Source: Pelagicoccus sp. SDUM812005
GTDB lineage: Bacteria; Verrucomicrobiota; Verrucomicrobiia; Opitutales; Opitutaceae
Direction: 5' to 3'
DNA length: 64,000 nucleotides
Assembly: GCF_031127875.1 (NCBI RefSeq)
Contig: NZ_JARXIA010000001.1
Span: 434,001 to 498,000 of the forward strand
Both the position numbers and the translations under genes were made by a program. A model generated the notes under the pieces. That model saw only the letters and a list, made by a program, of their open reading frames with translations. It had not been told where the DNA came from and did no database searches. Positions 20,576 to 55,899 of the stretch are shown one piece after another; positions within the stretch are counted from its first letter, which is position 1; each line of letters begins with the position of its first letter.

Positions 20576-22000
20576 GTGAAAAAATCTACTCAAACCTTTG
20601 GCGTCATCTTTGGAAATCGCGACTTCTTCCCGGACAAGCTGGTGACGGAAGCCCGTGCCGATATCGAAAAGCTTTTCGGTGAGCTCGGCTTGGAAGGCGT
20701 GTATTTGTCCGAGGAGGACACCAAGCTCGGCGGGGTGGAGACGCATGCCGACGCCCGCAAGTGCGCGGAGCTTTTCAAGTCGCGTCGCGACGACATTGCG
20801 GGGGTGCTTGTTTGTTTGCCGAATTTCGGGGACGAGAAGGGCGTGGCCGACACGCTCAAGATGGCGGGCTTGAACGTGCCGGTGCTGATACAGGGGTATC
20901 CAGATGACTTGGACAGGCTAGACGTTATTCGTCGCCGCGACGCGTTCTGTGGCAAGATTTCCGTATGCAATAACCTGAGACAGGCGGGGATTGCCTATTC
21001 CCTAACGCGGAAGCACGTGGTTCGCCCCAATGATCCTTCTTTCGTGGAAGACTTGCAGCAGTTCGTCGCGGTGTGCCGCGTCGTAGGAGGAATCCGCGGT
21101 TGCCGTATCGGCGCCGTGGGAGCCCGTCCTGGTGCCTTCAATACAGTTCGCTACAGCGAGAAGATCTTGGAGCGCAATGGCATCAGCGTCACCACTGTCG
21201 ACCTGTCGGAGATCCTAGGCGATGCCGAAAAGCTCGCGGCGGATAGCGATGCGATCGTTGCGAAGGTCGAAGAGATCAAGGCCTACGCCAATGCCTCCAT
21301 GGTACCGCAGGCAAAGCTCGTCCAGATGGCTCGGCTCGGCGTGGTGCTGGACCGTTTCGTAGAGCAAAACGCTCTCGATGCGACCGCTGTCCAGTGCTGG
21401 ACGTCGGTGCAAGCGAACCATGGTTGCAACGTTTGCACCTCGATGAGCATGATGAGCGAGGACCTTTCGCCCAGCGCTTGCGAAGTGGACGTCACTGGAG
21501 TGCTCACCATGTACGCGATGCAGTTGGCATCCGGAACGCCAAGCGCGCTGGTGGACTGGAATAACAACTACGGCGCCGAGGACGACAAGTGCGTGCTTTT
21601 TCACTGCGGCAATTGGGCGAAGTCCTTCTTGAAGGAAGCGAAAATCTCCACCGCGCCGATCCTGGGTACGGTCGTGGGCGAAGAGAATACTTATGGAGCG
21701 CTTGATGGCCGTACTCCAGCGAGTTCGCTCACCTATGGTCGTATCACCACTGATGATACGAACGGCTCGATTCGAGCCTATATCGGCGAAGGTCAATTGA
21801 CCGACGACAATTTGAAGACCTTTGGGAATCGGGCGGTTGCGCAGGTGCCTAAGCTGCAGAAGCTGATGCGGCACGTCTGCCGCGAGGGCTTCGAGCACCA
21901 CGTGGTGATGAATGCCTCGCACACTGCGGCGATCCTCAAGGAAGCCTTCGAGAACTATCTCGGCTGGGAAACATATTACCATGAACAACCAGAGGATTGA
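20576..22000 (+). CDS. L-fucose/L-arabinose-isomerase-family sugar isomerase
   Basis: A 474-residue member of the fucose/arabinose isomerase fold (COG2407-like), which interconverts aldoses and ketoses using a divalent metal. Likely metal ligands are Glu303 (in ACEVDVTG), Asp327 (in ALVDWNN) and His449 (in NASHTA), matching the Glu-Asp-His arrangement of the fold. A Cys-rich loop NHGCNVCTSMSMM precedes them. The start is a GTG (20576) with a weak ribosome site. It heads the operon with the split transketolase and kinase. By position it should make the ketose that the FGGY kinase phosphorylates, and D-apiose to apulose is my proposed reaction. Fucose or another pentose cannot be excluded. Confidence 0.78.
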   Translation: MKKSTQTFGVIFGNRDFFPDKLVTEARADIEKLFGELGLEGVYLSEEDTKLGGVETHADARKCAELFKSRRDDIAGVLVCLPNFGDEKGVADTLKMAGLNVPVLIQGYPDDLDRLDVIRRRDAFCGKISVCNNLRQAGIAYSLTRKHVVRPNDPSFVEDLQQFVAVCRVVGGIRGCRIGAVGARPGAFNTVRYSEKILERNGISVTTVDLSEILGDAEKLAADSDAIVAKVEEIKAYANASMVPQAKLVQMARLGVVLDRFVEQNALDATAVQCWTSVQANHGCNVCTSMSMMSEDLSPSACEVDVTGVLTMYAMQLASGTPSALVDWNNNYGAEDDKCVLFHCGNWAKSFLKEAKISTAPILGTVVGEENTYGALDGRTPASSLTYGRITTDDTNGSIRAYIGEGQLTDDNLKTFGNRAVAQVPKLQKLMRHVCREGFEHHVVMNASHTAAILKEAFENYLGWETYYHEQPED

Positions 22001-22005
22001 GAAGC

Positions 22006-22081
22006 GTAGCTCGGAGCGAGAGCCCGCCAGCGCCTTGCCTGATCTAGGCTGCTAGAACGATGACCAAAGCGCAGCGCTACG
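22006..22081. repeat. Degenerate inverted pair of REP-like repeat
   Basis: A reverse copy (22006-22040, GTAGCTCGGAGC then GAGAGCCCGCC) faces a forward remnant (22062-22081, AAAGCGCAGCGCTACG). The element fills the gap between isomerase and transketolase genes. Confidence 0.5.
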
Positions 22082-22102
22082 AATTTTCGAATCATTTTCA
22101 CC

Positions 22103-22945
22103 ATGAACTACACTGACGGACAACTTGAGCAAAAGTCGCTGAAATTGCGGCGGAGCGTCGTAAAGTGGATCAAGCATGCGGGAGCCGGACACACGGGCGG
22201 CAGCTTGTCTTGCATCGATATCTTAAACGTATTGTACAATCGGATACTCAATGTATCGCCGGAGAATTTTACCTCTCCGGATCGCGATCGTTACGTGCAG
22301 AGCAAGGGCCACGCGGTGGAAGCTTTGTTTGTGGTGCTCGCGGATGCAGGGTTTTTCGACGAGTCGGACCTGGAGACGCTTTGCTGCTACCAGTCGCACT
22401 ACGTGGGGCATCCCACCCGAAAGGTAAATGGCGTGGAGCAGAATACCGGTGGCTTGGGCCATGGTTTGCCGATTTGCGTGGGCACAGCGCTAGCGGGCAA
22501 GATGGACGCCAAGGATTACCGTGTTTATACCTTGCTCGGCGATGGAGAATTGGCTGAAGGATCGAACTGGGAGGCGGCCATGTCTGCGGCTCATTATAAG
22601 CTCGATAACCTAACCGCCGTAATCGACTGCAATACCCTGCAGATCGCTGGGCGAACCGCGGACGTGATGAACAGCGAACCCTTGGTGGAAAAGTGGGAAG
22701 CTTTTGGTTGGGCGGTACGTCGAATCGATGGCCACGATATAGCTGCTTTGACGGAGGCCTTGAGGGATCCCTTGGAAGCGGGAAAACCAAGTATGGTGAT
22801 TGCGGATACGGTTAAAGGGCGGGGAGTCTCGTTTATGGAAGATGTCGGAAAGTGGCATCATGGCGTGCCGAACGACGAGGAATTCGCGAAAGCGATGGAA
22901 GGCTTCGATATGCAACTCGCGGCCAAGGAAGGAGCTCTGTCATGA
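22103..22945 (+). CDS. Transketolase, N-terminal (TPP-binding) subunit
   Basis: A 280-residue protein that corresponds to the N-terminal half of transketolase. GAGHTGGSLS near residue 30 supplies an active-site His. GDGELAEGSNWEAA (about 146-159) with the later VIDCN is the thiamine diphosphate/Mg motif, and GLGHGLPICVGTALA is the usual preceding helix. The gene for the other half overlaps its stop by 4 nt. Bacteria with split transketolases often also have a normal one, so a dedicated pair next to a sugar isomerase and kinase points to an unusual ketose phosphate. The closest known precedent is apulose-4-phosphate transketolase subunit A. Split transketolases that simply handle xylulose-5-phosphate also exist. 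Confidence 0.85.
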   Translation: MNYTDGQLEQKSLKLRRSVVKWIKHAGAGHTGGSLSCIDILNVLYNRILNVSPENFTSPDRDRYVQSKGHAVEALFVVLADAGFFDESDLETLCCYQSHYVGHPTRKVNGVEQNTGGLGHGLPICVGTALAGKMDAKDYRVYTLLGDGELAEGSNWEAAMSAAHYKLDNLTAVIDCNTLQIAGRTADVMNSEPLVEKWEAFGWAVRRIDGHDIAALTEALRDPLEAGKPSMVIADTVKGRGVSFMEDVGKWHHGVPNDEEFAKAMEGFDMQLAAKEGALS

Positions 22946-23955
22946 GCGCTCCTGCACCCTCGATGTATAGCCCCGAAGCCTCCGCTCTCGCGGAAGAGAT
23001 TGGGCTCAAGAAAGGCAAGGCAAACTTGGAAGTGTTTGCGGCGACGGTGGAGGCTCTCGCATCGAGCGACCCGCAGGTCGTGGCGGTCGTCAGCGATTCG
23101 CGTGGCTCCGGCAAGTTGGGTCCATTCGGGGCGGCTTATCCGAAGCAGCTCGTGGAAGTCGGAATCGCGGAGCAAAATTTGGTCGGCGTCGCGGCTGGTC
23201 TCGCCTCGGCGGGCAAGAAGGTCTTTGCGGTGTCGCCGTCTTGCTTTTTGACGGCGCGTTCCTTGGAGCAGATCAAGAACGACGTCGCGTATTCAGATAA
23301 CCCTGTCACCCTTGTGGGGATCAGCTCGGGAGTGAGCTACGGAGCCTTGGGTACGACTCACCACTCCTTGCACGATTTTGCCGCCTTGCGGGCGATCAAC
23401 AATTTGCACGTGGTGTGCCCAGCGGACAACTACGAAGCGGAGCAAGCGGTTCGAGCGGCGGCCGTCTTGGAAAAACCTGTCTTTCTACGCTTCGGCAAGG
23501 CCGCTCTGTACAGTCTTGGGAGCGAAGCGGAGCAAGCCTTCGAGTTTGGCAAGGCGCGCCTCTTGCGTTATGGCGACGATTTGGCGTTCATTGCGACAGG
23601 AGAGACGGTTGCGCATGCCTTGCTCGCTGCGGAAAAGTTGAAACGCGAACAAGGCCTGGAGGCCCGCGTTATCAGCTTGCATAGCTTGAAGCCCTTCGAC
23701 GTGGATGCGGTTTTGGCGGCGGCTCGCGAATGCGGGGCGGTTGTTACGGTGGAAGAGCACATGGTTAATGGTGGTTTGGGCGAAGCCTGCGCTGCTGCGA
23801 TTTTAGAAGCGGGAGTGGGCGATTGCTTGTTCCATCGAGTTGGAATCCCTGACGAATACACCGTCACGGGCAGTCAGGCGGACATTTTCCGTCATTATGG
23901 AATTTCGATGGAAGGACTTTTTTCCACGGCGGGCCAGATGCTCGAAAGGGTTTGA
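22942..23955 (+). CDS. Transketolase, C-terminal subunit
   Basis: A 337-residue protein with the pyrimidine-binding and C-terminal transketolase domains. VGIAEQNLVGVAAGLA (about residues 74-89) contains the Glu that activates thiamine, GALGTTHHSLHDFAALRA the substrate-phosphate region, and VVTVEEHMVNGGLGEA the C-terminal domain signature. Start ATG 22942 overlaps the upstream stop (ATGA) and follows GGAG, so the subunits are made in equal amounts; a longer frame from 22852 lies entirely inside the first subunit. Together they would transfer a two-carbon unit from a ketose phosphate to an aldose phosphate. For apulose-4-phosphate plus glyceraldehyde-3-phosphate the products are xylulose-5-phosphate and dihydroxyacetone phosphate. 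Confidence 0.85.
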   Translation: MSAPAPSMYSPEASALAEEIGLKKGKANLEVFAATVEALASSDPQVVAVVSDSRGSGKLGPFGAAYPKQLVEVGIAEQNLVGVAAGLASAGKKVFAVSPSCFLTARSLEQIKNDVAYSDNPVTLVGISSGVSYGALGTTHHSLHDFAALRAINNLHVVCPADNYEAEQAVRAAAVLEKPVFLRFGKAALYSLGSEAEQAFEFGKARLLRYGDDLAFIATGETVAHALLAAEKLKREQGLEARVISLHSLKPFDVDAVLAAARECGAVVTVEEHMVNGGLGEACAAAILEAGVGDCLFHRVGIPDEYTVTGSQADIFRHYGISMEGLFSTAGQMLERV

Positions 23956-23983
23956 TGTAACTGAGTAGGGTTGCTGCATGCGA

Positions 23984-24013
23984 CGCGCTGCGGATCTCAG
24001 GATCCGCGGCGCG
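23984..24013. repeat. Strong palindromic hairpin between transketolase and kinase genes
   Basis: A 13-bp stem with one G-T wobble (CGCGCTGCGGATC at 23984-23996 against GATCCGCGGCGCG at 24001-24013) and tetraloop TCAG. No T-run follows on the plus strand, so it is more likely an mRNA-processing or REP-type element than a terminator. Confidence 0.6.
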
Positions 24014-24047
24014 CCGCCAGAGCTTCCGCTCCGGATTAAAAAAATAA

Positions 24048-25553
24048 ATGCCCCATTTCCTTGCCATAGACCAAAGCACCTCGGCCACCAAGGCTCTGCT
24101 GTTTAACGAACGCCTAGAGTTGCTCGATCGAGAAGGCATCGAGCATGTCCAGCACTACCCAAGAGCGGGGTGGGTGGAGCATGATGCGGAGGAGATTTGG
24201 CAGAACCTCTTGACGGTCGCGCGCCGGCTCTTGGGGCGACGACCCGCCGAGGCGGAATCATTGTGTAGCCTTAGCATTACCAACCAGCGGGAAACGATTG
24301 TCGTATTCGAAAAATCGAGCGGTAAGCCTCTCTATCCTGCTCTGGTCTGGCAGTGCCGTCGCGGCGTCGGCTTGTGCGATGCGGCGAACGCAGGCGGTTT
24401 GGGCCAATTGGTCGAAGAGCGGACTGGCTTGAAGATCGATGCCTACTTTTCGGCTTCGAAGCTGAAATGGCTGATGCAAAACGAGCCGGAAATCGCTCGT
24501 AAGGTGCGTTCGGGCGAAGCGCTGGTGGGGACGATCGACGCTTATTTGATCTATCGATTGACGGAGGGGCGTACGTTCGCGACGGATACGACGAATGCGA
24601 GTCGTACTTTGCTCTACGATATAGCATTGTTGCGTTGGGACGAGGCTCTTTGCGAACTTTGGGACACGCCTCTGCACGCCTTGCCGGAGGTCCGAGACTG
24701 CGAAGCCAAATTTGGGGAGACGACCTTGGGAGGTATCCTAAAGGAAGCTTTGCCCATATGCGGAGTGATGGGTGATTCCCAAGCGGCTCTATTCGCTCAA
24801 GGCTGTTACGAACCAGGCTCGGCTAAGGTAACTTTCGGCACGGGTTCGTCGATCTTGTTGAATGTCGGTTCCGAAATGAAGCGCTCGGACAACGGGGTGG
24901 TGACGACGCTAGCGTGGACTCGCGGCGGGATCCCCACCTATGCAATGGAGGGCATCATTATCAGTTCGGCGGCCACTTTGGCTTGGCTGAAGAACCAGCT
25001 AGGCCTGTTCGAAAGCTATTCCGAGGTGGAGCCCATGGCCCGCGAGCTCACGGGCAACGGTGGCGTGTACCTTGTTCCCGCGTTTACGGGGCTCGGCCTG
25101 CCTTATTGGAAAGCCGATGCGAGGGCGACGATCGTAGGGCTGAGCTCGCAGAGCGATCGGCGTCACCTGGTGCGGGCCGGAATCGAGTCGATGGCCTATC
25201 AAGTTAGCGAGGCATTGGCGGCGATGCGTGAGGATGCTGGCGTGTCGCTTTCGGGGCTTAAGGCCGATGGCGGAGCCACGAAGAATTCCTTTTTAATGCA
25301 GTTGGTCGCAGACTTGTGTCGTGTGGATTTGTCGGTCGCAGGCATGCCGGAATGTTCTCCATTGGGAGCGACCATGGCTGGAATGCTCGGAATGGGCCTT
25401 GTGGTGTCGCCGGAAGACTTTTCCTTAGGATCGGCCGAAGGTTTTACCCCTCGGATGCTTGCCGAAGAGTCCGATCGACTATTAGGTGAATGGCGTTCCG
25501 CAGTGCAACAGACCCTCGCCCCTCTCGAGGCTAAAGACCCGTTGTATTTGTAA
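24048..25553 (+). CDS. FGGY-family carbohydrate kinase, GlpK-like
   Basis: A 501-residue ATP-dependent kinase close to glycerol kinase. [12 protein letters not shown] is the N-terminal phosphate loop. Arg81 and Glu82 (NQRET), Tyr133 (DAYFS) and Asp243 (GDSQAAL, catalytic base) match the glycerol-binding residues of Glp[11 protein letters not shown] and [16 protein letters not shown] follow, and DGGATKNSF is the adenosine site. Without context it would be called glycerol kinase, but no glycerol facilitator or GlpD is nearby, and it is framed by an isomerase, a split transketolase and a sugar importer. Its proposed substrate is therefore the branched ketose apulose, whose reactive end resembles glycerol. 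A fructose-1,6-bisphosphate site was not assessed. Confidence 0.88.
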
Positions 25554-25605
25554 TGATTTACTGATTACGAAGAATCTAGATATCCCCCGAAAAAATACCC
25601 AAAAA

Positions 25606-26583
25606 ATGAATACACAAAAACTACCCGTTGGGGCGTGGCTTGTTGCCATTTGCTCTGCAATCTTTCTTCTCGCTGGCTGTGGCAAAGGCGAGGACGGCGA
25701 AGCTGGCTCCGACTCTACGGGGCCGAAGCGAATGGCTGTGGTCGTATCGACCCTTAATAATCCTTGGTTTGTGGTACTTGCGGAAACCGCTCGGGATCGG
25801 GCGATCGAGCTCGGCTACGAAGCCACGATTTTCGACTCGCAAAACGATCCGTCCAAAGAATCGGTTCACTTCGACAACCTGATCGCCTCTGGGTACGACG
25901 CGGTCCTTTTCAATTGCACGGATGCAGAGGGCTCCATCGCCAACGTGCGTCGCGCCAAGAAGGCTGATATTCCTGTCTTTTGCATGGACCGAGAGATCAC
26001 GGCGAACGACGTAGCGGTTTCTCAAATACTTTCGGACAACTATTCCGGTTGCGTCGCCTTGGGCGAGTACTTCGTCGAAACCGTCGGGGAGTCGGGCGAG
26101 TATGCGGAGCTGTTGGGAATTATAGCCGATACCAACACCTGGAATCGCTCCAAGGGATTCCACAGCGTAGTGGATCGCTTTCCTGGTTTGAAGATGGTTG
26201 CCCAGCAGTCCGCTGACTTCGACCGGGCCAAGGCCTTGGAAGTCATGGAGTCGATCCTGCAGGCAAACCCGAACATCAAGGCGGTCTTCTGCGGTAACGA
26301 CGCGATGGCGATGGGCGCCTACCAAGCCTTGCTCGCGGCCGGCAAGGCGAAGCAGGTGAAGGTCTTCGGCTTCGACGGAGCGGACGATGTCGTTCGTTCG
26401 ATTGCGGAAGGCAAGATAACGGCTACCGGAATGCAGTTCCCCAAGCGTATGGCGCGAACCTCGGCGGAAAGCGCTCATGCCTACATCAATGGCAAGCGCG
26501 ATTTCGATCAGCGCACCTTGGTTGCGGTCGAATTGGTGACAAAGGAAAACGTATCCAAATTTGGCGACTTCGGTCGCAAATAG
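25606..26583 (+). CDS. Sugar ABC transporter substrate-binding lipoprotein (RbsB type)
   Basis: A 325-residue periplasmic binding protein. The ATG at 25606 leads into a signal ending LLAGC, a lipobox, so Cys becomes lipidated. The body shows the RbsB pattern: [71 protein letters not shown] and [11 protein letters not shown]. Asn, Asp and Arg at these points usually bind a pyranose or furanose. It is the first gene of the importer cassette SBP-DUF2291-ATPase-permease. By context the ligand is the sugar processed by the isomerase/kinase/transketolase genes just upstream. An in-frame start at 25486 would place 40 non-signal residues in front and is rejected. Confidence 0.92.
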
Positions 26584-26605
26584 TTTCTGCTTTGCTGGAA
26601 ATTCC

Positions 26606-27259
26606 GTGTCTTATCTCTCGTCGAAATTTGTACGTTGGGGCGGCTCGGTGGCTTTGCTCGCCATCCTCTGGCTCGTATTGCCTCCCTTCAGGATCGTCTC
26701 CTTGGACGAGAACGGTAAGCTCCCTTCTAATGGAAAAGGGGATGCTGCCTTTGACGCAGGGGAGTTTGCGGATCGCTTTTGGGAGGAAACCTTGGTTTCC
26801 AGCATGGACAGCGCGACGCCGCTCAGCGACTTGCTTGAGGCGATCGATGCCGATCTCGCTTCGGCTAAGCGGAGCTATGGCGAGCAGAAGGGGGAAGGAG
26901 CTCCCGTTTACTTCTATGCAGGGGGAGAGGGCACCGTGGTTGAGATCAAAGGCCGTCGGGCCACGCTTCAAGCCCACGGGGCGCGCGTCAACCTGCTGAT
27001 TGCGCCTCCTGTATTTGGAAATACAGTACGAGATGGAACTGGGTTGCTGAGCGTCAACGAACTGCCTGGCCTAGAGGAGTTCAATGCGGTTTCTGCTGCC
27101 CTGAACAAGAAGGTCGAGTTGGAAGTGATGTCTGTTCTGAAGGATAGTCTTTCGCAGGGGGTGAAAGTGCGTTTCGTTGGCTGCTCGAAAGTTCCCGAGG
27201 CCTTGTCTGACGGGGCGAACCTGGAATTCACTCCATTGCGAGTGGAGATAGCGGAATGA
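26606..27259 (+). CDS. DUF2291-family periplasmic protein of the sugar importer
   Basis: A 217-residue protein with one N-terminal membrane helix (VALLAILWLVLPPF, about residues 13-27) and a periplasmic beta-rich domain, for example APVYFYAGGEGTVVEIKGRRA. DUF2291 proteins are typically found inside sugar ABC operons of the ribose type and their role is unknown. Start GTG 26606 is chosen because GGAA lies 7 nt upstream; an in-frame TTG at 26561 would overlap the preceding gene. The stop overlaps the ATPase start by 4 nt. A role as accessory domain between binding protein and permease is possible but untested. Confidence 0.75.
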   Translation: MSYLSSKFVRWGGSVALLAILWLVLPPFRIVSLDENGKLPSNGKGDAAFDAGEFADRFWEETLVSSMDSATPLSDLLEAIDADLASAKRSYGEQKGEGAPVYFYAGGEGTVVEIKGRRATLQAHGARVNLLIAPPVFGNTVRDGTGLLSVNELPGLEEFNAVSAALNKKVELEVMSVLKDSLSQGVKVRFVGCSKVPEALSDGANLEFTPLRVEIAE

Positions 27260-28794
27260 TTTCTGAAGCGAAGTGTATCCTCGAAGCCGAGGAGATCGTT
27301 AAGACCTTTCCAGGCGTTAAGGCTCTCTCGGGGGCGGGGTTGAGCGTTTACTCCGGGCGGCTGGTAGCATTGCTGGGTGAAAATGGCGCGGGGAAATCGA
27401 CTTTGATGAATGTGCTTTCGGGCGTTTTTCAGCCCGATTCGGGTACGATTCGAGTCGATGGTGAATGTGTCCAGTTTGCCAATACGCGAGAGGCTCAGGC
27501 CCGCGGTATCGGGATCGTGCACCAGGAGTTGAATCTGATTCCCTATTTGTCGGTGGCCGAAAACGTGTTTCTCGGAAACGAACCTAAATCCTGGAGTGGC
27601 TTGGTTGACTTTCGCAAGATGGAGGCGGAAACGGCCAAGGTCCTCGAGCGGGTCGATTTGCGAGTGGACCCGAGCGAACTCGTTTCGAACCTTCGGGTCG
27701 GCCAGCAGCAGTTGGTTGAGATTGCCAAGGCCTTGGCCTCCGAAGCTCGTGTCTTGATCCTGGACGAACCGACTTCATCGCTATCGTCTCATGAAGTGGA
27801 TACTTTGTTTTCGGTGGTGCGGGACTTGAAAGCGGATGGGGTGGGCTTAATCTATATTACCCACAAATTCGAGGAACTTGCCCCAATCTGCGACGAGGTC
27901 GTGGTGATGCGAGACGGTCAGCGAGTGGGGGAAGGGCAGCTTGCGCAGATGAGCCGCGATCGGATCGTGCAGCTGATGGCTGGACGGGAGTCCAAAGAGT
28001 TGTTCCAAAAGGCGGATACGGTACTTGGAGAAGAGGTTTTGCGAGCGGAAAGCGTAAGCTTGCCCGCCCAGGGCGTGGGTCGTCCCTTTTTGGTGAACGA
28101 TGTTTCGCTTTCGCTGAAGAAAGGCGAAGTCCTTGGGTTGTTTGGCCTCGTGGGAGCCGGCCGTACCGAATTGCTCGAGTGCTTGTTCGGCGCCCATGCC
28201 GGGGTGGCGACCGGTACCGTTTTCATCGATGGCGAGGAGATCCAGTTTCGGACTCCGGCGGATGCTATCGCGGCCCGGATGGCGTTTGCTCCGGAAGACC
28301 GCAAGCGCGATGGATTGGTGTTGCCGATGAGCGTGTTGGAGAATGCGAGCTTGCCGACTTTGGACAAATCGGTTCGAGGCGGTTTGGTGGACGTATCCAA
28401 GGAAACTGAATACATCAAGCCGTTCATCGATCGGTTTCGGGTGAAGACGCCCTCGATGCAGCAAGCGGTGGTGAACTTGAGCGGCGGCAACCAGCAAAAG
28501 GTGATCCTGGCCAAATGGTTGGCGACCGAACCGCGAATCCTTTTGCTCGATGAGCCGACCCGCGGCATCGACGTAAACGCTAAGCGCGAGATCTATACCT
28601 TTATCGACGAGTTGGCCAAGGCGGGACTTGGACTGATCGTCGTCTCCTCGGAGCTGCCGGAAATCCTGGCCCTATCGGACCGGGTTATCGTGCTCTGCGA
28701 GGGCAGGAAAACAGCGGAATTTTCCCGCGAAGAAGCAACCCCTGAACGTGTTTTGCATGCCGCTTTGCCGGACGAGGTAGCGGTGATCGATTAG
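27256..28794 (+). CDS. Sugar ABC transporter ATPase (RbsA type)
   Basis: A 512-residue protein with two fused ATPase domains. The first has Walker A GENGAGKST (41-49), signature LRVGQQQLVEIAKAL and Walker B VLILDEPTSSLS. The second has the degenerate P-loop GLVGAGRTELLE (Arg for Lys, normal in RbsA/MglA), signature LSGGNQQKVILAKWL and ILLLDEPTRGID. It energises import through the permease 2 nt downstream. The upstream overlap with the DUF2291 gene indicates one translation unit. Confidence 0.95.
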   Translation: MISEAKCILEAEEIVKTFPGVKALSGAGLSVYSGRLVALLGENGAGKSTLMNVLSGVFQPDSGTIRVDGECVQFANTREAQARGIGIVHQELNLIPYLSVAENVFLGNEPKSWSGLVDFRKMEAETAKVLERVDLRVDPSELVSNLRVGQQQLVEIAKALASEARVLILDEPTSSLSSHEVDTLFSVVRDLKADGVGLIYITHKFEELAPICDEVVVMRDGQRVGEGQLAQMSRDRIVQLMAGRESKELFQKADTVLGEEVLRAESVSLPAQGVGRPFLVNDVSLSLKKGEVLGLFGLVGAGRTELLECLFGAHAGVATGTVFIDGEEIQFRTPADAIAARMAFAPEDRKRDGLVLPMSVLENASLPTLDKSVRGGLVDVSKETEYIKPFIDRFRVKTPSMQQAVVNLSGGNQQKVILAKWLATEPRILLLDEPTRGIDVNAKREIYTFIDELAKAGLGLIVVSSELPEILALSDRVIVLCEGRKTAEFSREEATPERVLHAALPDEVAVID

Positions 28795-28796
28795 AA

Positions 28797-29777: not shown

Positions 29778-29793
29778 AGATACCCGACGTTCT

Positions 29794-29836
29794 CGAACCC
29801 CGGTCAGGTTCGCAGATTCGTCCGTATGTCGAATCT
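29794..29836 (+). terminator. Tandem stem-loops after the ABC cassette
   Basis: CGAACC/GGTTCG (29794-29812, 7-nt loop) and AGATTCG/CGAATCT (29814-29836, 9-nt loop). There is no T-tract, so they may slow 3' decay or terminate weakly instead of acting as a standard terminator. Confidence 0.4.
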
Positions 29837-29884
29837 CAATACCCACAATACTAAACTAAGAAAACTCAGAATACCCTAGTGATT

Positions 29885-46347: not shown

Positions 46348-46360
46348 AGCTCCGCCCTAC
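46325..46360 (+). repeat. REP-like repeat overlapping the racemase-like gene end
   Basis: CCTGCAGCGCGGACGC, then GGACTAAAGCTCCGCCCTAC. The TAA inside the repeat is the stop codon of the upstream gene. The preceding GATCCTGCAG is shared with the copy at 40212. Confidence 0.85.
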
Positions 46361-46377
46361 CTTAAGCCCCATACCCC

Positions 46378-47652: not shown

Positions 47653-47667
47653 AGGGCGAAGAGAACG

Positions 47668-48774: not shown

Positions 48775-48777
48775 GGG

Positions 48778-49815
48778 ATGACGCGGAACAATCGATTTCT
48801 AATTGCAACTTTAGCGGCTCTGGCGGCGATCCTTGGCGGGATCAAGTGGTACCAGTCGCGGCATGTGTCGGTGGGAGTGGAACCAATCGTATTGTACCTG
48901 CCACTACCCCATCCTTATTGCAACGCGGTTGGCGAAGGAGGAATAGCTTATGCGGAGGACTCCGGCAAGGGAGTTCGCGTGGTCGTGGGGCAGGAGAGCA
49001 CCCAGGCGAACGTGAATACCAACGTGGAATCCATGTATACGCTGGGGCACCAAGGCTTCGCTATCTATCCCGTCGATCCCGCGGGGTCGAAAGGCCTTTT
49101 TGCGCGGCTGCAGGCAGGTGGACGGCAGGTGGTCTGCTACGGCGCGGAGCCGATGGATGGGTCTGCCGCCTCTTTTGCGGTGGCGACGGATACAAGTGCG
49201 GCTGCCACTATGGCGGCCGAGGAGCTGATTCGCCTAATGGGAGGACGAGGACGGATCTTGAATGTCCTAGAGTCATTGACGGATGCGAACACTCCGGTTC
49301 GCAAGGCGGCTATCGAGGCGGTCGTGGCGAAGTATCCTCAGGTAGAGATAGTGCAAACGGTAGGAGACGTGACCACGGAGGCTAAGGCTAGGGAGAAAAT
49401 CGAAAGCGCCTTGGTCGCTCGGGGCGATGAGGTCGATGGGGTAATTTGTACTGGATATACGACTACGGTTGCAGCAGCGGTATTGTTGTCGGAGCGGAAC
49501 GCCAAGTCCCAAGGGAAGCGTATCCGTTTCGTGGGGTTGGATACGGACGAGCGGGTCTTGGAGGCGATTCGCCTAGGTCATGTCGATGCGACTTTGGCCC
49601 AGAATCCTTTCGGGCATGGATACATCTCCTGCGCTTTGATAGACCTGATGCAAGAAGGCTGGCAGCCAGTGAAGCCGTACCAGTTCATCGATTCCGGGGC
49701 AGCTGTTGTGACGAAGGAGAATGTGGACGATTTCCAAGGGGGAATCGAACGTTTGACGGAAGAGATCGTGGCGGACTTGAAGGGGCGTTATTTGGTGAAG
49801 GAGGGCAGGGAGTGA
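48778..49815 (+). CDS. Sugar ABC transporter substrate-binding protein (second importer)
   Basis: A 345-residue RbsB-type binding protein. The N-terminus (NNRFLIATLAALAAILGG) is a hydrophobic segment without a lipobox Cys, so the protein is membrane-anchored or cleaved differently from the first importer. The core includes VVGQESTQANVNTNVESMY, RILNVLESLTDANTPVRKAA, VDGVICTGYTTTVAAAVLL and GLDTDERVLEAIRLGHVDA. Its sequence differs widely from the first binding protein, so the ligand probably differs too. It follows the oxidoreductase by 3 nt and precedes an ATPase and a permease. The substrate may be apionate, apiose or an oligosaccharide. Confidence 0.87.
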   Translation: MTRNNRFLIATLAALAAILGGIKWYQSRHVSVGVEPIVLYLPLPHPYCNAVGEGGIAYAEDSGKGVRVVVGQESTQANVNTNVESMYTLGHQGFAIYPVDPAGSKGLFARLQAGGRQVVCYGAEPMDGSAASFAVATDTSAAATMAAEELIRLMGGRGRILNVLESLTDANTPVRKAAIEAVVAKYPQVEIVQTVGDVTTEAKAREKIESALVARGDEVDGVICTGYTTTVAAAVLLSERNAKSQGKRIRFVGLDTDERVLEAIRLGHVDATLAQNPFGHGYISCALIDLMQEGWQPVKPYQFIDSGAAVVTKENVDDFQGGIERLTEEIVADLKGRYLVKEGRE

Positions 49816-49864
49816 GTTTGCTTTGCTTTAGTTTTCGGGTGCGAAAGTGTCGTGACGGAGGAAA

Positions 49865-49900
49865 CTTGCAGCGCGGTCGCGGGCTAAAGCTCCGCGCTAC
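49865..49900 (+). repeat. REP-like repeat before the second ABC ATPase gene
   Basis: CTTGCAGCGCGGTCGC, then GGGCTAAAGCTCCGCGCTAC. The outer AGCGCGG/CCGCGCT arms are perfect. It lies in the only sizeable gap of the second importer cassette, so it could separate expression of binding protein and ATPase. Confidence 0.9.
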
Positions 49901-49918
49901 GGGAGGGATTTTCTTCTG

Positions 49919-51424
49919 ATGTTGGAGTTAAGGAACATCACCAAGACCTTTCCAGGCGTGAGGGCTTTGGACTCCGTTTCGATGCGCTTTCGGGCGGGAG
50001 AGATTCATGGGCTTATCGGGGAGAATGGCGCAGGCAAGAGCACTGCGATCAAGGTCGTGACAGGCATCCATCAACCGGATACGGGCGAGATTTGGTACGA
50101 TGGAAAACGTGTGGTTTTGGAGAACTATCGTGACAGTTTGGCGAAAGGAATCGGAATCGTGCATCAGGAGTTGCATGTGATTCCCGATGCCTCGGTAGCG
50201 GAGAATATCATGATAGATAAGCTGATCGCGAACCGGTGGGGCATTATCGATTGGGAAAGCGTGTACCGCGAGGCAAGGCGATACATGGAAATCGTTGGCC
50301 TAGAGGTTTCGCCTGAGACAATGGCCTCAGGATTGAGCGCGGCGCAGAAGCAGCAGATTCAGATTGCGAAGGCCTTGTCGGCGGATGTGCGTGTATTGTT
50401 GCTGGACGAGCCAACCAGTTCTTTGACGGAGCACGAAGCGAAACGGCTGTTTGTTGTATTGAACGAATTGCGACAGAAGGGAGTCGCCCTCATTTTCGTT
50501 TCTCACAAGTTGGAGGAAGTTTTTGAGATCTGCGATCGGGTGACGGTCTTGAGGGACGGGCTGTTTGTTGGGGAGAGGGAGGTCGAGGGGCTGACGCAAG
50601 CTGAGCTGATCAGCATGATGATCGGTCGGACTTGCAACGACGAGCATCTGGGAGTGTTGAATCCTGACTTTTCGGAAGTTGCCCTCGAGGCGCGGAAGAT
50701 CGTGCGAGCGGGCAAGGCGAAGGGGGCTTCGTTCAAGTTGCATCGGGGCGAGGTTTTGGGATTTTATGGCTTGGTTGGATCGGGAAGGACTGAGTTAGCT
50801 CGCATTCTGATTGGGGAAGATCGCATGGATTCCGGTGAGGTCTTAGTTCGCGGAGAGAGGGTGTCGATCGAGAGCGTGGAGGAATGCCTTTACCGGCACC
50901 GGATTGGCTACGTGACGGAGAACCGAAAGGAGGAGGGGCTTTTTCTAGAAAATCCGATTCTTTCCAACGTAGCCTTGCCTGTATGGCCACGTATCCGAAA
51001 TGCGGTGACACGCAGGATAGACGAAGTTCTTGAGCGATCCACGGCAAACCGCTATGCGGAGGCGATGAGCGTGAAAACGCCGAGTCTGGATCAGGTGGTT
51101 GGGGCTTTGAGCGGTGGAAATCAGCAGAAGGTGAGTATTGGCAAGTGGCTAGCTGCGGACTGCGATATCTTGATTATCGACGAGCCAACGGTGGGGGTCG
51201 ATGTAGGCGCGAAGGAACAGATTCACACCTTGATATGGAAGCTGGCCGCGGAGCAGGGGAAATCGATTATCGTGATTTCTTCTGATCTGCCGGAGATCGT
51301 ACGTATGGCCAATCGAATTCTTGTTTTTCGAGAACAGGAGATCGTGGGAGAGGTGAAGGACATCGATACGGAAGCGAAGTCTTACGAGCAGGTCAGTGAA
51401 GCGATAGGTAAGTATTTGGTATAG
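49919..51424 (+). CDS. Sugar ABC transporter ATPase (RbsA type, second importer)
   Basis: A 501-residue double ATPase. First domain: Walker A GENGAGKSTAIK (about residues 38-49), signature LSAAQKQQIQIAKAL, Walker B LLLDEPTSSL and the switch SHKLEEVFEICDRV. Second domain: degenerate GLVGSGRTELARIL, signature LSGGNQQKVSIGKWL and IIDEPTVGVDVG. The separation of its two domains and the degenerate second P-loop match RbsA and MglA. It powers the permease that starts 35 nt downstream. Upstream lies a REP-like repeat ending 18 nt before the ATG. Confidence 0.94.
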   Translation: MLELRNITKTFPGVRALDSVSMRFRAGEIHGLIGENGAGKSTAIKVVTGIHQPDTGEIWYDGKRVVLENYRDSLAKGIGIVHQELHVIPDASVAENIMIDKLIANRWGIIDWESVYREARRYMEIVGLEVSPETMASGLSAAQKQQIQIAKALSADVRVLLLDEPTSSLTEHEAKRLFVVLNELRQKGVALIFVSHKLEEVFEICDRVTVLRDGLFVGEREVEGLTQAELISMMIGRTCNDEHLGVLNPDFSEVALEARKIVRAGKAKGASFKLHRGEVLGFYGLVGSGRTELARILIGEDRMDSGEVLVRGERVSIESVEECLYRHRIGYVTENRKEEGLFLENPILSNVALPVWPRIRNAVTRRIDEVLERSTANRYAEAMSVKTPSLDQVVGALSGGNQQKVSIGKWLAADCDILIIDEPTVGVDVGAKEQIHTLIWKLAAEQGKSIIVISSDLPEIVRMANRILVFREQEIVGEVKDIDTEAKSYEQVSEAIGKYLV

Positions 51425-51459
51425 GCGCGAGTGTGTAAGCGGACTTGGAGAATTTAATC

Positions 51460-52446
51460 ATGAGTAGTGAAATAGTTAGGACAGGATTTGGTCAGCGGGA
51501 TTGGGTGAGTAGCCGTACTTTGGGTTTAATCCTATTCGCTGGGATCTTAATGATAGCGATGGCTCTGGCGTCGCCGAGCTTCTTGACGGCGGATACGTTT
51601 TTTAGCCAAAGCCGCTATGTGGCGTTCTATGTATTGGTAGCGATGTCGCAGGCTGTGTGTCTAGCGGTGGGCGATTTGAACCTGACGGTGGGGGCGATCG
51701 GGAGTATCATTACGGTTGCCCTGGGATTAGCGATTTCGCCCGAGTTTGCTGGGCTTTCCCCTTGGGTGGCGGTTCCGATCGTGTTTGCCCTCGGTCCGTT
51801 AACCGGTTGGTTGAACGGGCTTATCATCACAAGGTTCAAGATCGATGCGTTTATCGTGACGCTTTCCATGATGTTTGTCTACATGGGACTGCGCTCGGGC
51901 ATCTCGGGTGGGAATTCCTATCGTATCCCGGAGGGATTCTGGTGGCTCGGACAGGGAAATATCGGCGGTTGGCTGCCCTACATGGCTTTGATTGTGATCG
52001 CAGTCCTGTGGTGGATTTCGTATTTGTATCGCAATACGGTACTAGGGCGTCGCTTGCTCGCAACCGGGAGCAACAGCGAAGCGGCGCGGCTTTCGGGGAT
52101 CAATACGAAGCGGATGATCGTCGTGGCGCATGTGCTTTCGGGCGGATTTTCGGCGCTAGCGGCGATCATGTGGGCATCCTGGTCGGGGAACGCGGCTCCG
52201 CAGACGGGCGACGACTGGCTGATCATTTCTTTTGCGGTGGCGATCATCGGAGGAACGGGCTTGAGCGGGAGCTTGATCTCGCCTTTGGGGATCTTGGTGG
52301 GCGCTGTCATATTCAAGCTGATACAGCACGCCCTGGTCATTCTGAAAATAAACGATAACTATTCGAATACGCTACTGGGAGGTCTGATCCTGCTGGCCAT
52401 CGTGGTTGATCGGGCCCGGGAACATTTCGGAAAGGATGGGAAGTAG
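51460..52446 (+). CDS. Sugar ABC transporter permease (RbsC type, second importer)
   Basis: A 328-residue polytopic permease. The ATG at 51460 has GGAG 9 nt upstream; a TTG at 51445 is in frame but worse placed. Helices include LGLILFAGILMIAMALASPS, then SQAVCLAVGDLNLTVGAIGS, GLIITRFKIDAFIVTLSMMF and VAIIGGTGLSGSLISPLGIL, the coupling loop. VGDLNLTVG replaces the usual SGGIDLSVG of RbsC relatives. It completes the second importer. A 19-nt gap leads to the large glycosidase-like gene. Confidence 0.93.
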   Translation: MSSEIVRTGFGQRDWVSSRTLGLILFAGILMIAMALASPSFLTADTFFSQSRYVAFYVLVAMSQAVCLAVGDLNLTVGAIGSIITVALGLAISPEFAGLSPWVAVPIVFALGPLTGWLNGLIITRFKIDAFIVTLSMMFVYMGLRSGISGGNSYRIPEGFWWLGQGNIGGWLPYMALIVIAVLWWISYLYRNTVLGRRLLATGSNSEAARLSGINTKRMIVVAHVLSGGFSALAAIMWASWSGNAAPQTGDDWLIISFAVAIIGGTGLSGSLISPLGILVGAVIFKLIQHALVILKINDNYSNTLLGGLILLAIVVDRAREHFGKDGK

Positions 52447-52464
52447 TCTTTTTATTAACACAAA

Positions 52465-54570
52465 ATGCACAGGTTTTTTGAGATGAAATTAGTAGATGGA
52501 TTTAAAGGATTGTTGAGCTCTGCCCTTGTTTGGGGAGCGGTTGGACTTGCTGCGAAGGAGAAGTCGCTGGTGCGCGGGTACGTGGATGAGTTGTTGCAAG
52601 GCAGCGAGTTGGCAGGAGCTGTGCGGCTGGAGGTCGTGGACTCTTTCGCTTCGGAGGAAGCGTTCGAGCTGATCGAAAAGGGAAGTAGGACTATTGTGCA
52701 GGCTGGCGGCGATGCCGGCTTGTTGTATGGGGTGCAGGAGCTTTTGATGCCGCATAGTGTGGTGGAAGCTGAAGGGGAGCCGGACTTTGAGATTCGAGGT
52801 GCGGTTCTGATGATGTTAAGCCAGGACTGGGATTATCAGTCCGAGCTCCATCCGGATACCTTTCCTTGGTTTTATGACCAGGAGCTGATGACGAAGTATC
52901 TCGATTATTTGGCCTCTGCCCGTCTGAATACACTGGTGCTGTGGTCTGGCCACTTGTTTCCGCATATCCTAGATCTGCCCGAATATCCGGAGGCGTCGCG
53001 TTTTTCTGCGGAAGAGATTCACCGGAATCAGGAACAGTTCCGCTGGCTGGCGAACGAATGTGGTAAGCGGAATATCACGATCCTGACCCACTTCTACAAT
53101 ATTCACATTAGCGACGACTTGGCTAAGGTTTTGGGTCGCACGGGCAAGGAGCCGACGCGTTACGAGGAGCCGGATGCGTTTGTGACGAAGTATTACCGCA
53201 CCCTCCTGAGCCGTTACTTTGAGACTTTCCCCAGCGTGGGGCTTTACGTGTGTCCCGGAGAATCGCTTGGCCTGGAATTCCAGAAAGGCTGGTTCGAGGA
53301 CGTGATCTTCAAGGTCGCCAAGGAGACTGGCAGGGAACCTTTGCTGATCATTCGCGATTGGACTTTGGATCCGGATTTCATGGAAGCCCTGCCGTCCCTG
53401 TACGGAAATCTGTATTCGGAATTGAAACACAACGACGAAACGATCACCAGCCCTTGGCCGGATACGCGTCATCGTAAGTGGAAGGGTAAGCTGAAGGGGC
53501 ATATCATAAATCTGCACGATCCTTCGGATGTGGTTCCGTATCGTGTGGGCAGTCCGAAGCTTTTCAACGAGATGGTGGGACACTGGAAGGATGAAGGCTA
53601 TTTTAAGGGGTCTTGGTTCTATCCTCCGCAAGCTTGGGTTTGGCCGAATACCGTAGATGTCTTGCCGGAGGGCGAGAGCTTGCTCGGTTTCGAGCGGGAC
53701 GATCTTTGGCATTTGCTGGAAGGGCGTTACCTTTGGAAGGCGAAGCGCGAGGAGGAAGGGGAAACCCGTTGGGCTGCGGATTGGCTCGGTCGCAAGTTCG
53801 AGAATCCACAGGTGGGTGAACTCATGGTGGAGTGGTACGACTTGACGGCGCCTATTTTGCCAGGGCTGCAAAACTTGACCGCGGTTCGCTTCGGAAACTT
53901 CTTCCCGCCATCGATCGCTCGCGTTCAGACGGATGTGGACGAGATTCTGGGATCGCGTCTTAGTTTGGATGAAGGTCCGATCGAAGGGGCGACCGGGCAT
54001 ACGGGGCAACGCTACTACAGTCGGCCTGTGGATGCGTATACGATTTCCAAATACGAAGAGCGCTATGCGGTATCGGGAATAGAGGACCTACGCTCGGTAC
54101 CCGTGGCCCAGTACGCGGAGTGGATTGATTCCGGAAGGCTCCCCAAGGAACACTACCTCGAACCCCTGAAGCTCTCAGCCCTTTACGTTGCAATGGCCAA
54201 GGAGGCGCTCGACTTGGCTCAGGATATGGCGGACTTGCCCGGTGCGGAAGTAGGGGAACGCTTACGGTTCGTGAGCGATAGCCAGTGCCTCGTTTATACG
54301 GCGGAGTTCTATGACCTGAAGGTTCAGGCAGCGTTTGCCAAGCGCATGTTGGAGAAGACGGGGGATCTTAAGTACGCGGACGATTTTGAATCCTTGATGG
54401 AAAGAAGCGTAGTGAAGTACGAGCAACTGGTCCGATACGCGCTGAAGTTTTACAAGGCAGGGTCTTCGATGTGGGCGGCGAAGCCTTGGGAGCGTACGCT
54501 CAACGACAAGGTTAAGTGGGATCGAGACGAGCAATTGAAGTGGCTTCATGAATACAAAAAGGCTCGCTGA
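52465..54570 (+). CDS. Exported glycosidase-like protein with GH67/GH20-type N-terminal domain, unassigned
   Basis: A 701-residue exported protein; a hydrophobic segment (FKGLLSSALVWGAVGLAA) gives the export signal, with ATG 52483 as an alternative start. Residues 40-95 (RTIVQAGGDAGLLYGVQELL) resemble the N-terminal domain that precedes GH20, GH67 and GH84/115 barrels. A TIM-barrel-like region follows: RLNTLVLWSGHLFPHILDL, NITILTHFYNIHISDD, SVGLYVCPGESLG and PLLIIRDWTLDPDFM, with acidic residues at strand ends. A helical C-terminal domain ends the chain. I do not recognise an assigned CAZy family. Its place between importer and GH28 suggests action on a uronic-acid-bearing pectin fragment. 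Confidence 0.65.
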   Translation: MHRFFEMKLVDGFKGLLSSALVWGAVGLAAKEKSLVRGYVDELLQGSELAGAVRLEVVDSFASEEAFELIEKGSRTIVQAGGDAGLLYGVQELLMPHSVVEAEGEPDFEIRGAVLMMLSQDWDYQSELHPDTFPWFYDQELMTKYLDYLASARLNTLVLWSGHLFPHILDLPEYPEASRFSAEEIHRNQEQFRWLANECGKRNITILTHFYNIHISDDLAKVLGRTGKEPTRYEEPDAFVTKYYRTLLSRYFETFPSVGLYVCPGESLGLEFQKGWFEDVIFKVAKETGREPLLIIRDWTLDPDFMEALPSLYGNLYSELKHNDETITSPWPDTRHRKWKGKLKGHIINLHDPSDVVPYRVGSPKLFNEMVGHWKDEGYFKGSWFYPPQAWVWPNTVDVLPEGESLLGFERDDLWHLLEGRYLWKAKREEEGETRWAADWLGRKFENPQVGELMVEWYDLTAPILPGLQNLTAVRFGNFFPPSIARVQTDVDEILGSRLSLDEGPIEGATGHTGQRYYSRPVDAYTISKYEERYAVSGIEDLRSVPVAQYAEWIDSGRLPKEHYLEPLKLSALYVAMAKEALDLAQDMADLPGAEVGERLRFVSDSQCLVYTAEFYDLKVQAAFAKRMLEKTGDLKYADDFESLMERSVVKYEQLVRYALKFYKAGSSMWAAKPWERTLNDKVKWDRDEQLKWLHEYKKAR

Positions 54571-54603
54571 GTTTATGGAATCTAAGAGGAGAGTATATTA
54601 GCT

Positions 54604-55899
54604 ATGAGGTTATTGAAGCATTTAAGTATTGGAGCGGCGGTTGTTGCATTGGCAGGCAGCGCTGCTTATTCGCAAAGTTCGATCGATCACGATCCACTTT
54701 TGGATCGCGAGAGGTATTTGATTACCGACTACGGGGCGGTTGGCGATGAGAGTACCATCAATACGGAAGCGATCCAGAAGGCGATCGACACGGCTTCCGA
54801 ATCAGGAGGAGGCGTGGTAGTGATTCCTAAGGGTGTTTTTCGGTCTGGTTCTATTTTCATCAAGCCAGGAGTGGGCCTGCATCTTGAAAAAGGAGGCGTC
54901 CTGCAAGGATCGCAGCAGCTTGAAGATTATCCCAAGTTGAACACGCGTATTGAAGGGCATTTCGAGCCATGGCGTATGGCCTTGGTCAACGCTCAGCATG
55001 TGGACCAGCTTCGCATCACTGGGGAAGGCTTGCTGGATGGCAATGGCGAGCCGTTTTGGGCGGCGTTTTGGCAGCGTCGGGAAGAGAATCCGAATTGCAC
55101 GAACCTGGAGGTGGAGCGCCCGCGCATGATGTTCATCGACCAGTGTAAGGATGTTTTGATACAAGGGGTAAGTCTGCAGGATTCGGGCTTCTGGAACATA
55201 CACGTTTATCGTTCGCAGGATGTAACGATCGATGGCGTTTCGATCACTTCGCCCAATGGCACCCCTCCGGACCGGGCCCCTAGCTCGGATGGAATCGACA
55301 TCGATAGCTGTCAGCGGGTAACGGTGCGAGACTGTTTCATAACGGTGGGCGATGACTGTATTGCTATTAAGGGTACAAAAGGTCCGGACGCTTTGGAAGA
55401 TGAGACAAGTCCTCCGGTGGAAGATATTTTGGTGGAAAACTGTCGCTTCGACAGTGGGCACGGGGTGGTGACGCTGGGCAGCGAAGCGACCATCGTGCGT
55501 AACGTGACGGTGCGGAATTGTACGGTGACGGGCTGGAACAAGCTGGTGCGTCTAAAGTTGCGCCCGGATACGCCTCAGACTTACGAGAACTTGCTCTACG
55601 AAAACATTGTCTACGAAGCGGAAGGCGGAATTTTTGATATCAAGCCTTGGAAGCAGTTCTTCGACCTGAAGGGGCAGGAACCGCCGCGTTCGGTGGTGCG
55701 CAACGTTACGGTTCGGAACGTAAAGGGCTGGACTGGCAAGTGGGGCGAGATCGTGGGAAATCCGTTGGATACGATCTCAAACTTTTCCGTGGAAAACGTG
55801 GAGCTTGAAATCGAGAGCGACGTGATGACGCTTGGTCAAGTCGACGGCCTGCGCTTCAAGAACGTGACCGTGAATGGTAAGAAGCTGCAGACCGAGTAG
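54604..55899 (+). CDS. Exported GH28 polygalacturonase-family enzyme
   Basis: A 431-residue exported enzyme with a signal peptide (about 1-22). It has a beta-helix opening YLITDYGAVGDESTINTEAI and then the GH28 hallmarks: SSDGIDID (NTDG-type strand), VGDDCIAIKG (catalytic Asp pair), SGHGVVTLGSE (His-Gly) and RLKLRP (RIK-type). All catalytic residues are present. It hydrolyses alpha-1,4-galacturonosyl or related rhamnogalacturonan bonds, exo- or endo-. GAGGAGAG lies 11-18 nt before the ATG region. It ends the pectin block; the stop is only 6 nt from the end of the convergent histidine kinase gene. Confidence 0.92.
   Translation: MRLLKHLSIGAAVVALAGSAAYSQSSIDHDPLLDRERYLITDYGAVGDESTINTEAIQKAIDTASESGGGVVVIPKGVFRSGSIFIKPGVGLHLEKGGVLQGSQQLEDYPKLNTRIEGHFEPWRMALVNAQHVDQLRITGEGLLDGNGEPFWAAFWQRREENPNCTNLEVERPRMMFIDQCKDVLIQGVSLQDSGFWNIHVYRSQDVTIDGVSITSPNGTPPDRAPSSDGIDIDSCQRVTVRDCFITVGDDCIAIKGTKGPDALEDETSPPVEDILVENCRFDSGHGVVTLGSEATIVRNVTVRNCTVTGWNKLVRLKLRPDTPQTYENLLYENIVYEAEGGIFDIKPWKQFFDLKGQEPPRSVVRNVTVRNVKGWTGKWGEIVGNPLDTISNFSVENVELEIESDVMTLGQVDGLRFKNVTVNGKKLQTE

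Follow-up and report, generated by a model that had tools for sequence, protein, structure and literature searches.

A 64,000-nucleotide stretch of the 6.65 Mb genome of Pelagicoccus sp. SDUM812005 (the window) carries, among genes for pectin-degrading enzymes, one gene set related to the transketolase route of D-apiose catabolism (module 1, 20576-29777) and another containing a RuBisCO-like protein (RLP) and a DUF1537 kinase (module 2). Which sugar or sugar acid does each set serve? The initial annotation had placed both apiose routes, transketolase and oxidative, in this one locus. A transketolase-type module in a locus of rhamnogalacturonan II (RG-II) type was borne out; assignment of the RLP, the DUF1537 kinase and a Gfo/Idh/MocA oxidoreductase to the oxidative route was not, as no ApnO was matched. 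We propose, with a probability of about 0.6, that this RG-II locus contains two separate monosaccharide pathways, one for apiose by the transketolase route and one for aceric acid by an RLP route.

The RLP block and its association with GH127

The locus consists of two gene runs, each of a single direction (20576-34392 and 36352-55899), separated by a minus-strand PL1-like lyase gene (Table 1). In the second run all gaps are at most 103 bases except one of 253 bases, the GH78 stop and the RLP start overlap by one base, and the RLP and DUF1537 kinase open reading frames (ORFs) overlap too. Four RG-II-type glycosidases, a GH127, a GH78, a GH138-like protein and a rhamnogalacturonidase-like GH28, are present, and the region is, as far as sequence can tell, an RG-II degradation locus. 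BPa0997 (PDB 6hzf), matched by the GH138-like protein, is presumably a GH138, an RG-II enzyme type. All genes named in the initial annotation were recovered in place by ORF, Pfam, NCBIfam and PDB checks; the PF01177 protein, the SBF symporter, the GH138-like protein and a 503-residue membrane protein were absent from it. The grouping is more than chance, because other genomes contain these gene sets as well.

The RLP is the first gene of a block of four, RLP-DUF1537 kinase-PF01177-SBF. Conservation of this block was followed in the best 80 of at least 537 confirmed stretches with an RLP relative (70-78% identity; 67 long loci, 13 shorter than 20 kb), which belong to Bacteroidota (72), Verrucomicrobiota (7) and one record labelled Actinomycetota. 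The RLP is present in 80 loci, the kinase in 76, the PF01177 protein in 76 and the symporter in 75. GH127 is the most frequent partner enzyme among the families counted: it lies within about 10 kb of the RLP in 34 loci, and in 21 (17 by a coarser measure) it ends at most about 400 bases upstream. The other families were DUF5703 (19 loci), GH78-like (18), esterase (18), GH141 (12), BT_1020-like (9) and GH138-like (5). The second importer and the Gfo/Idh/MocA gene were considered as core parts of the RLP module and rejected as too rare: relatives of the binding protein were found in none of the 80 loci, those of the ATPase and the permease in three each, and those of the oxidoreductase (29-58% identity) in 14, often near GH127 or the RLP.

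The plainest single run (L140) reads isomerase-tktN-tktC-FGGY-GH127-GH78-RLP-kinase-PF01177-SBF. Four other loci (L138, L141-L143) resemble it, with extra genes, minor changes of order, or genes outside the sequence examined, and an Opitutia genome (L077) has a similar gene run. A plasmid locus of Rufibacter tibetensis (L001) shares the RLP-kinase-PF01177-SBF block (74, 54, 68 and 67% identical), near pectin enzymes, and differs from the window in that no transketolase module is annotated in the 41 kb examined.

The window GH127 scored 671 bits against PDB 5mqo and 343 against the next chain; a profile built from ten GH127 relatives scored 1025 and 512 bits respectively. We take 5mqo to be BT1003, the aceric acid hydrolase of family GH127 from the RG-II system of Bacteroides thetaiotaomicron, and the window enzyme is thus probably of the aceric-acid-hydrolase type, which agrees with the RG-II role first given to it. 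The window differs from the BT1003 system, with which it would share the GH127 subfamily by score if 5mqo is BT1003, in that its GH127 is tied to the RLP/kinase block; several other GH127-bearing genomes are without the block.

Co-inheritance was analysed in 387 Verrucomicrobiota genomes. A close RLP was found in 12, a close relative of the module 1 isomerase in 13 and GH127 at E ≤ 1e-180 in 14, with all 12 shared (Fisher p about 1e-21; by genus, 9e-15 for the isomerase; the genomes are not independent, as one family supplies most of them). The bounds for closeness were set after the results were seen. The RLP search matched 13 genomes, one of which (G130) was left out at 33% identity; the isomerase search matched 76, of which the 13 at 72% identity or more were taken as close; the GH127 search matched 30, from which 13 (at least 60% identity) and G295 (46%) were counted and 16 others (36-44%) were not. 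At a GH127 bound of E ≤ 1e-150, 18 genomes are positive, comprising 12/12 RLP-positive genomes and 6 of the 375 others (Fisher p 9e-19). The isomerase lies within about 32 kb of the RLP and GH127, on one contig, in 10 of the 12 RLP-positive genomes, the window included; in G010 and G295 the isomerase and the RLP are on different contigs. Among 325 Bacteroidia genomes, GH127 at E ≤ 1e-150 was found in 5/5 RLP-positive and in 6/320 RLP-negative genomes (Fisher p 5e-7 without the chosen centre).

Whole genomes were also searched for 50 of the 80 loci, all Bacteroidota. GH127 was found in 50/50, with one match each (weakest E 1.3e-197), and the isomerase at E ≤ 1e-50 in 32; 18 have none. Every tested genome with the RLP block thus also has GH127, while the isomerase is separable from the block. 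The isomerase was accordingly dismissed as an essential component of the RLP module, although all 12 RLP-positive Verrucomicrobiota genomes have it. No RLP block was found in the eight RLP-free GH127 loci that were read (six from Bacteroidia, one from G351 and, in G143, the region following GH78).

In a tree of 35 RLP rows made by a quick method (20 of the 80 loci used; 5 of 12 other Verrucomicrobiota RLP loci, L086, L089, L093, L094 and L095, omitted), the window RLP falls, with SH-aLRT 99, in a group made up otherwise of Bacteroidota loci and L081, and the remaining Verrucomicrobiota RLPs lie elsewhere. By identity, the window isomerase and GH127 are closest to Verrucomicrobiota (79% versus at most 72%, and 64% versus at most 52%). 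Because of this discordance the RLP block (42994-47652) may have been acquired separately and have landed in the same run, and such a separate arrival would point to a functional tie. L081 is a metagenome-assembled genome labelled Williamsia (Actinomycetota) that has the block (L081:10001-11236); the label is probably wrong, since its RLP clusters with those of Bacteroidota and a SusD-family protein lies close by.

Module 2 proteins and the proposed aceric acid pathway

The window RLP matches NCBIfam OiaX with 504 bits and the DUF1537 kinase matches OiaK with 449 bits, each below the curated cut-off of 700; the kinase scores 203 bits with the 3-oxo-tetronate kinase model. Residues K180, K206-D207-D208-E209, H293, H295, R296 and K335 of the RLP (numbering of the 441-residue ORF) are conserved in at least 97% of aligned rows, OiaX included, so that the presumed catalytic lysine, the KDDE motif and the HxHR motif are kept in the window RLP, its relatives and OiaX. 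The PF01177 protein has, according to its AlphaFold model (pLDDT 92), the fold of glutamate and aspartate racemases: Foldseek ranks glutamate, aspartate and hydantoin racemases highest (TM 0.61-0.74, relative to the query), and an arylmalonate decarboxylase mutant was matched at TM 0.49. It does not have the two cysteines of Asp/Glu racemases. C77 and S187 are invariant in 76/76 aligned sequences, window included, and the invariant S187, located by motif position, appears to occupy the second catalytic site.

In the oxidative apiose route, ApnO makes the substrate used by OiaK and OiaX; this substrate is a branched beta-keto acid, of which OiaK phosphorylates the terminal CH2OH and OiaX removes CO2. 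The canonical cluster of Rhizobium sp. BT03 has the order OiaX-OiaK-LerI-RpiB-ApnO-importer-ApsD-ApnL (the names LerI, ApnO, ApsD and ApnL being presumptive). The window shares with it a tandem RLP and DUF1537 kinase homologous to OiaX and OiaK. It differs in that loci of the window type have no ApnO or ApnL match, that PF01177 and SBF proteins are found instead, and that GH127 is the partner. ApnO was found in 3/3 canonical apiose clusters and in 0/49 relatives carrying the RLP (genomes of 49 of the loci above, plus L003 as the control record, which was found at E 5e-134); the host genome gave no match either, in a search without a positive control of its own. ApnL, LerI and RpiB were found in 0/80 related loci, a search of loci rather than whole genomes, and none of the 26 window proteins compared matched ApnL. 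The absence of LerI and RpiB says little, because the Labrenzia and Rhizobium ruizarguesonis loci, with homologues of ApnO, ApsD and ApnL, are without them too in the loci read.

That the Gfo/Idh/MocA enzyme oxidises apiose, and that the kinase and the RLP process the product via apionate and 3-oxo-isoapionate, so that both apiose routes would coexist here, is in our estimate very improbable. This reading has in its favour that OiaX and OiaK are the nearest NCBIfam models and that the RLP and the kinase are 48 and 41% identical to the proteins of the canonical cluster. That both score below the cut-offs is by itself weak evidence against it, because a Labrenzia RLP located within a complete apiose cluster does not receive the OiaX name either. 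A non-homologous replacement of ApnO is also conceivable. Against it stand the contrast in ApnO between canonical clusters and the host with its 49 relatives, and the lack of an ApnL match in the 80 loci. Moreover, neither of the two remaining proteins is orthologous to its supposed counterpart: the oxidoreductase shows 28% identity over 119 residues to ApsD and has relatives in just 14/80 loci, and the second binding protein shows 24% over 164 residues to the canonical one. The RLP module was rejected as an oxidative apiose route on the lack of an ApnO match, and module 2 is probably not that route. No ApnO match at E ≤ 1e-5 was obtained, with controls found in 3/3, in RLP and DUF1537 kinase loci of Bradyrhizobium, Azospirillum, Paroceanicella and Sinorhizobium fredii (in one of the four, about 6 kb separates the two genes), and the use of these families therefore seems to extend beyond apiose.

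Apiose and aceric acid, the latter rare among pectin sugars, would be two exotic sugars of one side chain of RG-II, the most complex pectin of plants; the order at the base of this chain is taken to be aceric acid-rhamnose-apiose, aceric acid being OHC-CHOH-C(OH)(COOH)-CHOH-CH3. Aceric acid would be released by a secreted GH127, and the bond between rhamnose and apiose would be cut by GH78. The SBF symporter would import aceric acid, which an aldose-ketose isomerisation would convert to HOCH2-CO-C(OH)(COOH)-CHOH-CH3. The DUF1537 kinase is then expected to phosphorylate the primary hydroxyl of this ketose, a beta-keto acid, and the RLP to remove CO2 from it. The expected product, a 5-deoxypentulose 1-phosphate, could be split by a class II aldolase into dihydroxyacetone phosphate and acetaldehyde. 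On paper, the ketose is 3-oxo-isoapionate with CH2OH replaced by CHOH-CH3, that is, with one extra methyl; the OiaK/OiaX chemistry would carry over because of this homology, and since aceric acid already carries the carboxyl branch, the route could do without ApnO. The PF01177 protein is the candidate isomerase because it is the only block member left for this step, which is the weakest of the proposal. Gene content, conservation, co-inheritance and the missing ApnO match are observations; all substrates, the order of the module 2 steps, the isomerase and the aldolase are inferred. That the four genes form an aceric acid pathway in Bacteroidota and Verrucomicrobiota, with a single-cysteine PF01177 protein interconverting aldose and ketose and the RLP removing the carboxyl branch, has by our reckoning roughly even odds.

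If correct, the proposal adds aceric acid to the substrates of RuBisCO-like proteins. It explains the coupling of the RLP to GH127 in many genomes, provides a testable set of four proteins, and separates the RLP/DUF1537 kinase pair from apiose, so that calling these genes OiaX and OiaK might be misleading for these phyla. The open-licence literature searched gave, among the matches listed, no paper on how aceric acid is catabolised; one may exist elsewhere.

Several observations weigh against an aceric acid pathway. The block contains no aldolase and no undisputed isomerase (class II aldolases are encoded elsewhere in the host genome, 4 matches in three open frames), and for a PF01177 protein, isomerising an aldose to a ketose would be a new reaction. 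Other specificities also occur among GH127s (PMC5698469). GH127 was not seen in 46/80 loci in the sequence examined, and 30 of the 67 long loci have it. Conversely, it occurs without the RLP in G143 and G351 (at least 60% identity), in 6/320 Bacteroidia, and at 36-44% identity in 16 more Verrucomicrobiota, four of which pass the 1e-150 bound; G143 has isomerase, transketolase, GH127 and GH78 yet no RLP match. Three long loci (L005, L043, L049) have no kinase, and L005 and L043 also have no PF01177 protein or symporter; the RLP of L005 stands without the other three genes, and the same species has a second, full four-gene locus (L007). Finally, GH127 co-occurrence alone leaves other RG-II acids, such as Dha, possible, because RG-II enzymes travel together.

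Module 2 might serve another RG-II acid (Dha, Kdo) or a uronate-derived acid, with the RLP as a beta-keto-acid decarboxylase, which we regard as unlikely. NCBIfam DUF1537-type kinases cover several four-carbon acids, RLP and kinase pairs occur in the clusters without an ApnO match mentioned above, and a beta-propeller protein like BT_1020, which we take to be a Dha hydrolase, is encoded in 9/80 loci and adjoins the RLP in two. Set against this, GH127 is the leading partner among the families counted (34/80), and the carbon chains of Dha and Kdo are not branched whereas the substrate of OiaX and OiaK is a branched beta-keto acid. In L043 and L049, GH127 adjoins the RLP and no DUF1537 kinase is present in the sequence examined; the BT_1020-like protein comes next in L049, and a protein of similar length in L043.

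The transketolase-type module

Module 1 comprises a split transketolase, an FGGY kinase and an importer in one run with the isomerase. By its sequence it fits the transketolase route of D-apiose, in which the isomerase would convert apiose to apulose, the FGGY kinase would form apulose 4-phosphate, and the split transketolase would yield dihydroxyacetone phosphate and xylulose 5-phosphate. This pathway (ApsI, apulose kinase, AptA/AptB) was reportedly described by Carter et al. in 2018.

The isomerase has no PDB match; Pfam finds the L-fucose isomerase C-terminal domain only, and the single NCBIfam match is of 83 bits (cut-off 700). A plasmid search returned 13 records, the three best from Klebsiella, Rahnella and Sodalis, with 53-55% identity; over about 464 residues the identity is 54-55%. 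In these operons the isomerase gene lies between the split transketolase and the FGGY kinase, with genes for a binding protein, a DUF2291 protein, an ATPase and a permease upstream, and AptA, AptB and the kinase are 78-79, 73-77 and 70-72% identical to those of the Escherichia coli SE15 cluster. The window isomerase is probably ApsI-like because of this operon context of its relatives. According to PMC13001218, E. coli strains carrying the SE15-type cluster, in which AptA, AptB and AplK are named, grow on D-apiose, and Escherichia is without the isomerase gene apsI that Pectobacterium has.

Compared with the E. coli and Pectobacterium clusters, the window has the same isomerase, FGGY kinase, split transketolase and importer with a DUF2291 protein. 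The AptA-like subunit is 50% identical to SE15 AptA; the AptB-like subunit and the kinase are more distant, at 41% to E. coli AptB (49% to a Shinella homologue) and 35% to AplK. The window set also differs in being embedded among RG-II-type genes and in its binding protein, which is closer to a ribose-binding protein. The latter feature raises a different reading, that module 1 is a ribose or D-arabinose operon as in Thermotoga maritima. The binding protein matches 2fn8, a ribose-binding protein presumably from Thermotoga, with 374 bits, ahead of 5ibq/4ry0 (215 bits), and the kinase passes the GlpK subfamily model NF000756 (523 bits, cut-off 498). The T. maritima ribose operon, as given in PMC3750489, has two predicted D-arabinose enzymes and a transketolase. 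On the other hand, the isomerase shares 54% identity with its counterparts in enterobacterial apiose-type operons, a close isomerase accompanies the RLP in 12/12 Verrucomicrobiota genomes, and no ribokinase was found among the module 1 genes scanned (Pfam, NCBIfam). We therefore hold a ribose or D-arabinose operon to be improbable, and retain the transketolase route of apiose for module 1.

PMC7939467 describes Rha-alpha1,3-Api in RG-II, cut by the alpha-rhamnosidase BT1001, with BT1012 as the apiosidase. Outside the window, the host genome has two Apiosidase-family matches over the cut-off. Downstream of the window a DUF5060-Apiosidase-DUF5605 protein (L128:11437-13257; host contig C31, about 529.4-531.3 kb) is encoded among GH43-like, GH65-like and GH95-like genes. 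Thermotoga maritima, with its similar so-called ribose operon, likewise matches the Apiosidase family. Another apiose operon may exist in Monoglobus pectinilyticus (L157), where the genes next to a DUF5060 protein encode a distant isomerase (26%), a split transketolase and a GlpK-like kinase.

Other features of the window

Table 1. Features of the window, with positions, strand and the basis of each assignment
Feature	Position	Strand	Basis
RND efflux	229-4490	-	
Cytochrome c552 family protein	6794-8296	-	
AraC regulator	9131-10138	+	
Sulfatase	10309-11865	+	
TonB receptor	14787-17963	+	
L-fucose-isomerase-family sugar isomerase, probable D-apiose isomerase (ApsI-like)	20576-22000	+	PF02952
Transketolase N-terminal subunit, AptA-like	22103-22945	+	PF00456
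Transketolase C-terminal subunit, AptB-like	likely start 22942, to 23955; ORF open from 22852	+	PF02779, PF02780
FGGY kinase, probable apulose kinase	24048-25553	+	PF00370/PF02782; NCBIfam GlpK subfamily NF000756
First importer, whole	25486-29777	+	Pfam, NCBIfam scans
First importer, binding protein ORF	25486-26583	+	PDB match 2fn8
First importer, DUF2291 protein	26561-27259	+	
First importer, ATPase	27256-28794	+	
First importer, permease	28797-29777	+	
PA14-domain protein, two Sde182 nucleoside-hydrolase-like proteins, 283-residue protein	29879-34392	+	
PL1-like pectate lyase with TSP3 repeat	34421-35974	-	PF00544
GH127, signal-peptide-like start (by eye)	36352-38436	+	closest PDB 5mqo
Hydrophobic 503-residue protein, probably membrane transporter	38491-40002	+	sequence
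GH78 alpha-L-rhamnosidase; no obvious signal peptide (by eye)	40256-42994	+	Pfam rhamnosidase domains
RuBisCO-like protein, proposed beta-keto-acid 1-phosphate decarboxylase	likely start 42994, to 44241	+	NCBIfam OiaX match
DUF1537 (SBD_N/NBD_C) kinase	likely start about 44258, to 45631; ORF open from 44225	+	NCBIfam OiaK match
PF01177 (Asp/Glu racemase family) single-cysteine protein, proposed isomerase/epimerase	45643-46347	+	Pfam
SBF/PanS-type symporter, proposed branched-sugar-acid importer	46378-47652	+	PF01758; PanS 198 bits, cut-off 400
Gfo/Idh/MocA oxidoreductase	47668-48774	+	
Second sugar importer: binding protein, ATPase, permease	48778-52446	+	
GH138-like protein	52465-54570	+	170 bits to PDB 6hzf (BPa0997), residues 38-441
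GH28, rhamnogalacturonidase-like	54604-55899	+	PF00295; NF049899 (BT4153) 440 bits, cut-off 650
Hybrid sensor kinase with YfiR-like protein	55906-58759	-	
TonB receptor	58762-60966	-	
GH31	61224-63533	-	

The 503-residue membrane protein gave no match in the Pfam and PDB searches. The host has a second GH127, of 42% identity, on contig C63. The Sde182-like pair lies in tandem (30659-33522), and its relatives adjoin PL1-like genes on host contig C74 (L130).

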